Position numbers and translations under genes: made by a program. Positions 35,469 through 38,603 of a stretch of 64,000 bases of DNA are shown here, in pieces (position 1 is the stretch's first letter; every line of letters starts with the position of its first letter). The notes beneath the pieces are model-generated. The model saw only the letters and a program-made list of their open reading frames with translations, was not told where the DNA came from and did no database searches. Origin of the DNA: Geodermatophilaceae bacterium NBWT11 (lineage in GTDB: Bacteria; Actinomycetota; Actinomycetes; Mycobacteriales; Geodermatophilaceae); NCBI GenBank assembly GCA_014218215.1, contig CP043652.1:3658001-3722000 (forward strand). Reading direction: 5' to 3'.

Positions 35469-35605
35469 TGACGCACCTCCGGGTTGATCGTCTCGGCGGC
35501 CATCCTGCCCGGATCGGGCTCCGGGCACACCCCGAAGCGCCAGGTGTGACCCGTGGCGCTGCCGGGGCGGGCGCCCAGGCGTTCGGCGGGCCGTCCGTGC
35601 CGGGG

Positions 35606-35611
35606 TAATCT
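35606..35611 (+). promoter_or_regulatory. -10 box of the leuS leader
   Basis: TAATCT, the most AT-rich hexamer in its region, followed by 6 nt and the GTG of a leucine-rich leader peptide. Transcription should begin at that GTG. Confidence 0.65.
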
Positions 35612-35617
35612 CGCGGC

Positions 35618-35653
35618 GTGTCCGGTGGACTGCTCCTCCCGAGGCCGTGCTGA
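35618..35653 (+). CDS. Leucine leader peptide upstream of leuS
   Basis: GTG at 35618 opens an 11-codon frame, [11 protein letters not shown], ending in TGA at 35651-35653. Three successive leucine codons (CTG CTC CTC) sit at codons 5-7. The hairpin CCGTGCTGACC/GGTCACCACGG (35645-35655 with 35667-35677, one mismatch) overlaps its end, and an intrinsic terminator follows at 35680-35705. This is the layout of ribosome-mediated attenuation: stalling at the Leu codons when charged tRNA-Leu is scarce would prevent termination before leuS. It is too short to detect by coding statistics, so the support is architectural. Confidence 0.7.
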
Positions 35654-35677
35654 CCGCTCCCGCCCAGGTCACCACGG
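35645..35677 (+). promoter_or_regulatory. First hairpin of the leuS attenuator
   Basis: 35645-35655 pairs with 35667-35677 at 10 of 11 positions, around an 11-nt loop. The left arm covers the last codons and stop of the leader peptide, so ribosome position decides whether it forms. I could not settle which segment acts as antiterminator. Confidence 0.55.
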
Positions 35678-35679
35678 TC

Positions 35680-35705
35680 ACCCCTCCTGCGTGAGGGGTT
35701 TTTTT
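35680..35705 (+). terminator. Intrinsic terminator (attenuator) in front of leuS
   Basis: A 7-bp stem ACCCCTC/GAGGGGT with a 6-nt loop runs straight into seven T residues. It is the only terminator in the window with a real T run, and it sits 39 nt before leuS. Confidence 0.85.
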
Positions 35706-35744
35706 CTGCCCACCCACCGGCACGCAGCCCCCAGGAGTCCCGCG

Positions 35745-38603
35745 ATGAGCCAGCCCAGCCCCGACGCCGTCCCCGCGCACCGCTACACCCCGGCGCTCGC
35801 CCAGCAGATCGAGCTGGCCTGGCAGGACCGCTGGGAGGCCGAGGGCACGTTCCACACCCCGAACCCGACCGGCCACCTGGCCGCGGGCTTCGAGCGCGTC
35901 GCCGACCGGCCCAAGGCGTTCGTGATGGACATGTTCCCGTACCCCTCGGGGGCCGGGCTGCACGTCGGGCACCCGCTGGGCTACCTGGGCACCGACGTGA
36001 CCAGCCGCTTCCTGCGGATGGACGGGCACAACGTGCTGCACCCGATGGGCTACGACGCCTTCGGTCTGCCGGCCGAGCAGTTCGCCGTCCAGACGGGGCA
36101 GCACCCGCGGGTCACCACCGAGGCCAACATCGCCGCGATCTCGGCGCAGCTGCGCCGGCTGGGCGTCGACCACGACACCCGCCGCACCTTCGCCACGATC
36201 GACCCGGGCTACTACCGGTGGACCCAGTGGATCTTCACCCAGGTCTTCGGTGCCTGGTTCGACACCGCTGCGGACAAGGCCCGGCCCATCGAGGAGCTCG
36301 TCGCCGAGCTGGACGCCGGCACCCGCGAGCCCGACACCAACCCCTTCGACCGCCCCTGGGCGCAGCTGACCGAGGTCGAGCGCCGGCAGGTCGTCGACCT
36401 GCACCGGCTGGCCTACCTGAACCAGGCCCCGGTCAACTGGTGCCCCGGGCTGGGCACGGTGCTCTCCAACGAGGAGGTCACCGCCGACGGGCGGTCCGAG
36501 CGCGGCAACTTCCCGGTCTTCCGGCGTCCGCTGACCCAGTGGATGATGCGGATCACCGCCTACTCCGAGCGGCTGCTGGCCGACCTGGACCGGCTGGAGT
36601 GGTCGGACTCGCTGAAGCAGATGCAGCGCAACTGGATCGGCCGCTCCACCGGCGCCCGGGTCCGGTTCGGTGACATCGAGGTCTTCACCACCCGCCCGGA
36701 CACCCTGTTCGGCGCCACCTACCTGGTGCTGGCCCCCGAGCACCCGCTGGTCGACGCACTGACCGCCGGGTCCTGGCCCGCGGACGCCGACCCGCGCTGG
36801 ACGGCCGGCGCGGCCACCCCGGCCGAGGCGGTCGCGGCCTACCAGCTGCAGGCCTCCCGCCGCTCGGAGATGGACCGTCAGGCCGAGGGCCGGGACAAGA
36901 CCGGAGTCTGGCTGGGGACGACGGCGGTCAACCCGCTGACCGGCCGCGACCTGCCGGTCTTCATCGCCGACTACGTCCTGACCGGCTACGGCACCGGCGC
37001 GATCATGGCCGTGCCGGGGGAGGACACCCGCGACTTCGAGTTCGCGGAGGCGTTCGGGCTGCCCGTGGTCCGCACCGTGCAGCCCCCGGAGGACTTCGCC
37101 GGCGGTGCCTACACCGGGTCCGGCCCCATGATCAACAGCTCCAACGACCAGCTGTCGCTGGACGGGCTGGACAAGGCCACCGCGATCGCCACCGTCACCG
37201 AGTGGCTGGTCGCGGGTGGGCACGGTGAGTCGACGACGACCTACAAGCTGCGCGACTGGCTGTTCAGCCGGCAGCGCTACTGGGGCGAGCCGTTCCCGAT
37301 CGTCTACGCCGTCGACGGTCCCGACGCCGGCCTGCCGGTCGCCGTCCCGGCCGACCAGCTGCCGGTGCTGCTGCCCGACGTCGACGACTACTCCCCGAAG
37401 ACCTTCGCCGACGACGACGCCACCTCCGCCCCCGAGCCGCCGCTGTCCCGGGCGACCGAGTGGACGACGGCCACCCTGGACCTGGGCGGCGGGCCGCGGG
37501 AGTACCGGCGCGAGACCAACACGATGCCCAACTGGGCCGGCTCCTGCTGGTACTACCTGCGCTACCTGGACCCGGCCGACGACGAGCAGTTCGTCGACCC
37601 GTCGCTGGAGGCCTACTGGATGGGCCCCCGCTCCGAGGGCGACGTCGGTGGCGTGGACCTGTACGTCGGCGGTGTCGAGCACGCCGTCCTGCACCTGCTG
37701 TACGCCCGGTTCTGGCACAAGGTGCTCTTCGACCTGGGCCACGTGTCCTCCGAGGAGCCCTTCCGCCGGCTGGTGAACCAGGGCTACATCTCGGCCTACG
37801 CCTACACCGACTCCCGGGGCTTCTACGTGCCCGCGGCCGACGTCGTGGAGCGGGACGGTGCCTTCTTCTACGAGGACCAGCCGGTCGACCGTGAGTACGG
37901 GAAGATCGGCAAGAGCCTGAAGAACATGGTCACCCCCGACGAGATGATCGGGGCCTACGGCGCCGACACCTTCCGGGTCTACGAGATGTCCACCGGTCCG
38001 CTGGAGCAGTCCCGCCCGTGGGACACCAAGGCCGTCGTCGGGTCGCAGCGGCTGCTGCAGCGGGTCTGGCGGGTGGTGGTCGACGAGACCACCGGTGAGG
38101 TCCGCGCGGGCGAGGACGCCCTGCCCGTGGACACCGCCAAGGCCCTGCACCGCGCGGTGGACGGGGTCCGGGACGGGCTGGCCACGCTGCGCTTCAACGT
38201 GGCCATCGCCCGGATCGCCGAGCTGACCAACCACCTGACCCAGGCCTACGGGCAGGCCGGGCCGGTGCCGCGGCAGGTCTGCGAGTGGCTGACCCTGCTG
38301 GTCTCCCCGCTGGCCCCCCACGTGGCCGACGAGCTGTGGTCGAGGCTGAGTCACGACGGGTCCGCTGCCTGGACGCCGTTCCCGGTCGCCGACCCGGCGC
38401 TGCTGGTGGACGACACCGTGACCGTGGTCGTCCAGGTCAACGGCAAGGTGCGGGCCCAGGTCGCGGTGCCGGCCGACGCCGATGCCGCGGCACTGGAGGC
38501 AGCAGCCCGGGCCGACGAGCGGATCGTCGGTCAGCTGGAGGGGAAGACCGTCCGCCGGGTCATCGCGGTGCCCGGGCGGCTGGTCAACTTCGTGGTGGGC
38601 TGA
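35745..38603 (+). CDS. leuS: Leucyl-tRNA synthetase
   Basis: This 952-residue class I synthetase has the HIGH motif as HVGH in [16 protein letters not shown] (about residue 72) and the KMSKS motif as KIGKS followed by [27 protein letters not shown] is characteristic, and a CP1 editing domain lies between the motifs ([20 protein letters not shown] contains the editing Asp). AGGAG precedes the ATG at 35745. Expression is probably controlled by the leader-peptide attenuator just upstream. Its last 20 bases overlap the converging F420-type oxidoreductase gene. In mycobacteria leuS lies elsewhere, so it looks inserted into the lipA-lipB interval. Confidence 0.97.

Follow-up and report, generated by a model that had tools for sequence, protein, structure and literature searches.

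The leucyl-tRNA synthetase gene leuS in the DNA analysed here (64,000 nucleotides from the 4.59-Mb genome of Geodermatophilaceae bacterium NBWT11, hereafter the window) is very probably controlled by a leucine-responsive, ribosome-mediated transcription attenuator, as predicted from its sequence. The attenuator is real, conserved and of a known kind, found here in a family that is new to it. Since the nearest named leuS locus is that of Klenkia brasiliensis (87%, L032), the host probably belongs to Klenkia, within the Geodermatophilaceae.

All parts of the element lie on the forward strand. The putative leader promoter is represented by a -10 box TAATCT (35606-35611), which is followed after 6 nt by a leader ORF of 11 codons starting with GTG at 35618 (35618-35653; GTG TCC GGT GGA CTG CTC CTC CCG AGG CCG TGC TGA). 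Sequence and family conservation suggest that this leader is leaderless, and its three successive leucine codons CTG CTC CTC (35630-35638; sequence and alignment A1, see below) are taken as the sensing codons. Box, gap, frame and leucine codons had been described in an earlier note on this DNA and can be read directly in the sequence. Hairpin H1, the proposed antiterminator (35643-35679; folding and pair changes in A1), covers the leader stop and encloses the smaller hairpin (35645-35677) that the note had placed there. In the window H1 contains one C.C mismatch and has G-U as its first pair at the base (fold and A1). Directly behind it are the terminator hairpin T (35680-35699; terminator scan, folding and pair changes in A1) and its T-run (35700-35705, or seven T's including T35699). 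As claimed earlier, 39 nt lie between the end of the T-run and the leuS ATG at 35745, and a second T-run terminator is absent from the window, in the sense that no other site has an unbroken run of at least 5 T's (14 looser sites have broken T stretches). Leader stop and leuS start are 91 nt apart, and AGGAG (35733-35737, by eye) is the presumed ribosome-binding site. The downstream gene (35745-38603, 952 aa) is identified as leuS by TIGR00396 (850.5 bits against a cut-off of 548.4). Folding of 35619-35706 yields -38.4 kcal/mol (z -2.58), a value equally low in 2 of 200 shuffles. Scans of the whole window gave no sigma-70-type promoter pair, and the evidence for the -10 box is therefore its conservation; nor, as far as can be read from the letters, is there a promoter downstream of the terminator, the case that the note had named as speaking against its reading. 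The leuS frame stays open upstream across the whole attenuator (35553-35744) up to a GTG at 35553 (ORF of 1016 aa against 952), and gene callers may therefore place the leuS start too early. Elsewhere, at 425-827, the window contains a bacterial RNase P RNA of class A.

Leader and -10 box are present in all 90 leuS upstreams fetched from the Geodermatophilaceae and in none of the reverse strands (0/90), with three consecutive leucines in 81 of the 90 leaders. For this family sample 96 genomes were searched and upstream DNA was obtained from 90; in most of the six omitted (G010, G018, G033, G050, G071, G083) leuS is split or weakly matched. Among the own locus and seven congeners some leaders read MSGGPLLLRPC. 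Identity with these congeners amounts to 88-91% from leader to terminator and to 63-67% in the 100 nt 5' of the promoter, the latter figure being inflated by the global alignment used. Applied to 271 upstreams, the leader finder accepted 208 on the forward and 0 on the reverse strand, against 4 of 1355 Markov shuffles. A count over 257 distinct upstreams leaves out a duplicate (L001), two loci where the upstream was not reached (L172, L222), one without N-terminus (L056), one shorter than 300 nt (L241) and all identical upstreams; leaders were accepted in 194 of the 257, which include a single paralogue that is not leuS (L002). Acceptance demanded a -10 box at 5-8 nt and at least 2 nearby leucine codons; the distance from TANNNT to the leader start is 6 nt in 129, 7 nt in 64 and 8 nt in 1 of the accepted upstreams. 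Under a lenient rule a terminator lies behind 193 of the 194 leaders, the T-run being eroded in some loci (L191, L193, L196). The locus sample is biased, with 90 loci from one family and many from Streptomyces.

The pattern formed by a -10 box, 5-8 nt, an ORF of 7-20 codons with LLL and a terminator occurs once in the window (both strands scanned) and is absent from 20 simulated 64-kb strands. Given this absence, the lack of reverse-strand leaders and the few leaders in Markov shuffles, a chance origin is rejected. The alignment of relatives that the earlier note had suggested thus turns out in its favour, with leaders in 90/90 family loci, terminators behind 193/194 leaders and covarying hairpins. 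Its proposal of a leaderless leader agrees with a geometry that is conserved in all 90 family loci, and with the S. lividans leader, mapped as leaderless according to the relevant part of PMC8079986.

Alignment A1 comprises 53 diverse sequences, the window and 52 others thinned to less than 90% similarity. These 52 were drawn from the 183 of 192 sequences that have 8 bp or more in H1 and an H1-T junction of -1 to 2 nt (a rule that the window itself would fail), and because its members were chosen for H1 length and junction, the pair counts lean towards structure. In A1, 11 of the 19 pairs of H1 and T are changed on both sides (H1 6/11, T 5/8). The cells of both hairpins are paired for 93.7%, dropping to 38.5-54.6% when slid by 1-3 columns, and 0 of 500 shuffles matched H1 and T on any of five measures (a count, not a probability). 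The base of H1 consists of four pairs (GCCG/CGGC). Three of them never vary, and the window alone has G-U as the first pair instead of the G-C of the other 52 sequences. A covariation scan of 185 sequences recovers pairs of H1 and T but no alternative helix among the top 30 column pairs, the remainder mostly being non-complementary or sharing one column.

Spacing is conserved as well. The last leucine codon precedes H1 by 5 nt in 143, by 4 nt in 16 and by 2 nt in 22 of 192 leaders, and with stems extended greedily the gap between H1 and T is 0 nt in 157 of the 192 sequences, with a 1-nt overlap in 8. The stop follows one codon after the leucine run in 7 of the 192 leaders (e.g. L273 and L106) and H1 still keeps its distance to the leucine codons; the fixed quantity therefore seems to be that from leucine codon to H1. 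What the comparison of sequences shows is the leader with its sensing codons, the two hairpins H1 and T, and the spacing of these parts.

The sensing codons favour CTT, which is very rare within leuS. The last leucine codon of the 192 leaders is CTT in 144, CTC in 42 and CTG in 6 cases, and all their leucine codons together comprise 236 CTT, 182 CTC, 172 CTG, 5 TTG and 1 TTA, whereas the 5908 leucine codons in leuS frames of 80 named loci are divided into 5436 CTG, 411 CTC, 46 TTG, 10 CTT, 5 CTA and 0 TTA. In A1 (53 sequences, picked for at least 2 nearby leucine codons) both the C and the T are invariant in the last two leucine codons. The window leader, being CTG CTC CTC, is without CTT; its leuS uses CTG 76 and CTC 4 times. 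CTT and CTC are decoded by one isoacceptor. That attenuation leaders can show codon bias is already known (treated in part of PMC1183508).

How might these parts act together? We infer a response to leucine, and that the two hairpins exclude each other because they abut, not because they have bases in common. Transcription would start at or beside the leader GTG, and a ribosome would translate the leaderless leader behind the advancing RNA polymerase. With ample charged leucyl-tRNA the ribosome would pass the leucine codons and reach the UGA within the 5' arm of H1, keeping H1 open, upon which T would fold and transcription would stop before leuS. When leucyl-tRNA is scarce, the ribosome would stall on the leucine codons with its downstream edge at the foot of H1. 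H1 would then stay folded, and since its base abuts that of T without a spacer, T would be blocked in the exit channel and leuS would be transcribed.

On balance we slightly favour H1 as the antiterminator, a role supported by footprint geometry. Using a 12-nt footprint, a ribosome at the leader stop hides the entire 5' arm of H1 in 191 of 192 sequences, and an earlier stall leaves it almost free (with the codon before the last leucine in the A site only 1 nt of H1 is covered in 143/192). Counting against this role are a stall on the very last leucine codon, which covers 4 nt of H1 in 143/192, and the mismatch and G-U pair of the window H1. Folding of the ribosome states predicts T in every state for six examples cut at the T-run; in a seventh (L023), which ran past the terminator and where the T-run was not recognised, T is not folded in some states. 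Given that H1 and T mostly share no bases and that T is predicted in every state, base-pair competition alone fails to explain the switching; for the same reasons, and as no other helix is supported, exclusion by abutment is proposed. The overlapping antiterminator sought by the earlier note finds no support, and it is H1 itself that abuts the terminator. An extension of H1 into T by GAG:CTC was rejected: by eye, leaders whose CCG follows GAG or GGG would allow it, whereas many Geodermatophilaceae carry CGG, CAG or CCG at that place and would not. Pairing of the leucine codons with the 3' arm of T was also rejected, having the wrong polarity (by eye).

It might be argued instead that H1 is the protector (anti-antiterminator) of a three-segment attenuator, in which a stall frees its 3' arm for the 5' arm or loop of T. 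Conservation of the terminator loop is strong (158/192 have CTGYGY), 5'-GCRCGG of the H1 3' arm could pair with this loop in 87% of cells, and a stall on the last leucine codon that partly covers H1 would fit. This GCRCGG-loop helix, however, is without covariation: only 1 pair is double-changed and 436 of 500 shuffles score as high in cells paired, while the top 30 column pairs (185 sequences) hold no other helix run and T is the preferred fold in the examples cut at the T-run. We therefore regard the protector role as rather improbable, and the overlapping 2:3 antiterminator GCRCGG:CTGNGY was rejected for its lack of covariation. The 5' arm and loop of T (35683-35692 in the window, CCTCCTGYGY in most sequences) are strongly conserved, and the candidate pairing partners are without support.

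The scaffold of hairpins extends beyond leuS. In the own genome, covariance model R1 finds the leuS leader at E 4.7e-13 and a place before leuA at E 0.22. This leuA (L276, identified by eye) has a leaderless leader MRGSLLLTCRGEALS with three leucine codons and a -10-like box upstream. Searching the class with R1 under strict filters (by which weak cases may be missed) gave 84 matches, with 73 of 138 genomes matched. Matches before leuS account for 62 of the 84, namely 61 at a located leuS and one (G124) that runs into a contig end, where the frame matches the N-terminus of LeuS (E 7e-8). Counted per genome, the element is found at leuS in 61 of 124 genomes with a located leuS, or in 57 of 120 without G214, G223, G227 and G232, where leuS was located only through the match; about half of the sampled class is without a detectable element. 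Located leuS genes gave no R1 match in, among others, families f2 (0/9), f17 (0/7), f14 (0/5), f23 (0/8), f22 (0/3) and f33 (0/3).

The other 22 matches lie before cimA (14), ilvB (3), leuA (2), ilvA (2) and a gene for a 112-aa protein (1), based on scanning a single representative of each gene, or two in the case of leuA, and assigning the others by tblastn. All 14 leaders before cimA (citramalate synthase; L277-L286, L292, L296, L312 and L313) contain two successive isoleucine codons, 3-6 nt before H1. The three ilvB leaders contain mixtures of Ile, Leu and Val, and both leuA leaders LLL. Before ilvA (threonine ammonia-lyase; L294, read by eye, and L295) an isoleucine codon stands ahead of H1. 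At L290 the scaffold with an isoleucine leader, MFTPRIII, precedes the 112-aa protein, which appears ACT-domain-like by eye and has no NCBIfam match at 1e-20. The H1-T gap in these 22 matches is 0 nt in 19 and 1 nt in one; L291 has no T by scan, and L294 has a 4-nt gap and probably a wrong leader frame. As judged from these loci, it is one scaffold whose codons are matched to the downstream pathway (leuS, cimA, ilvB, leuA, ilvA). More tentatively, actinobacteria may share a modular attenuator for branched-chain genes (leuS, cimA, ilvB, ilvA and some leuA), in which sensing codons a few nt 5' of a GC-rich hairpin, abutting T without a spacer or a shared base, would act by steric exclusion in the polymerase exit channel. 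If true, the sensed amino acid could be changed simply by exchanging two codons. Among the matches listed in a literature search that covered papers outside subscription, there was no actinobacterial cimA leader-peptide attenuator.

The swapped codons also bear on the suggestion that a constitutive terminator and its leader merely lower leuS expression, without leucine control. Replacement of possible regulatory codons before ilvBNC in S. coelicolor was without effect, as told in the part of PMC1262725 concerned, and this would agree with such a role; the specificity of the sensing codons for an amino acid, their avoidance of the preferred codon and their switch from one downstream gene to another, however, make it quite unlikely. 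Slightly less credit still is given to an action of the leader on leuS translation, either by re-initiation or by freeing a ribosome-binding site paired with CCUCCUG. Although CCUCCU in T is complementary to AGGAG before leuS (by eye), and pairing of leucine codons with the Shine-Dalgarno box was proposed for the LEU element of leuA (in that same part of PMC1262725), a terminator lies behind nearly all leaders (193/194, lenient rule) and stop and start are 91 nt apart, compared with 10-11 bp in a re-initiation proposal (PMC4833913, as far as its relevant part goes); on this distance re-initiation as main role was rejected. The top pairs of the scan of 185 sequences, which reached 40 nt past T, contain no base stem between leucine codons and Shine-Dalgarno. 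A T-box was rejected, as its covariance model has no match in the window at the gathering cut-off, nor in 35480-35800 at E up to 5.

A leucine-responsive attenuator, the preferred reading, resembles several known systems. Enterobacterial leu, trp and his attenuators have control codons, a leader stop within a hairpin and an intrinsic terminator, all of which are present in the leuS element. In those systems one strand is common to antiterminator and terminator, whereas no strand-sharing antiterminator helix is supported for leuS. To judge by its title, a 2010 survey deals with attenuation in amino-acid and aminoacyl-tRNA operons, and a wider prediction may therefore already exist. Attenuators with leader, antiterminator and terminator were predicted before leuS of S. 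avermitilis and S. coelicolor in 2005, along with leaders before ilvB and leuA (PMC1262725, in the part concerned). As a correction to the earlier note, leuS attenuators in actinobacteria had thus already been published. In S. lividans, leuL2 (MRAVRLLLSEPR) was found to be leaderless by RNA-seq in 2021 and is followed by a hairpin and a U stretch (relevant part of PMC8079986); the same peptide is found in many Streptomyces loci of our sample. Like the window element, the Streptomyces attenuator has a three-leucine leader, leaderless in S. lividans, a hairpin and a T-run terminator before leuS (so far as these parts of the papers describe it), and Streptomyces loci can be aligned with the window over leader, H1 and T in A1. 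The window leader differs in having 11 codons, a GTG start and the ending RPC (against 12 codons, ATG and EPR), and the top of its H1 is shorter with one mismatch. Among the matches listed, the literature contains no other actinobacterial leuS leader; PMC3896937 and PMC9413887 contain 'leuS' only within an author name.

The LEU element of leuA is likewise an actinobacterial leader with a leucine run, but the window element stands before leuS instead of leuA; for the LEU element a pseudoknot and Shine-Dalgarno pairing were proposed, and S. lividans leuL1 (leuA) is described as having no typical terminator in the relevant part of PMC8079986. With regard to mechanism, we propose that the abutment model is close to that of C. 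glutamicum ilvBNC, where (according to the part of PMC11857589 concerned) mutational data favour an antiterminator with its base next to that of the terminator, though the authors weigh terminator stability above the antiterminator. There too CUU is among the control codons, and the leader start is said to be one nucleotide away from the start of the transcript or of translation; the C. glutamicum hairpins share a GCC trinucleotide, whereas H1 and T of leuS mostly share none (same part of PMC11857589).

What our sequence analysis adds to the cited papers would be the class-wide matches, the codon-swapped scaffold before other genes, the preference for CTT and the zero-gap H1-T junction. The parts worth following are the shared scaffold with its swapped codons and this junction: the conserved spacing offers a sharp test of an antiterminator acting without bases common to the terminator, and the cimA and ilvA versions form natural codon-swap controls. 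For the organism itself, the leaderless leader is predicted to link a tRNA synthetase to the amino acid that it charges.
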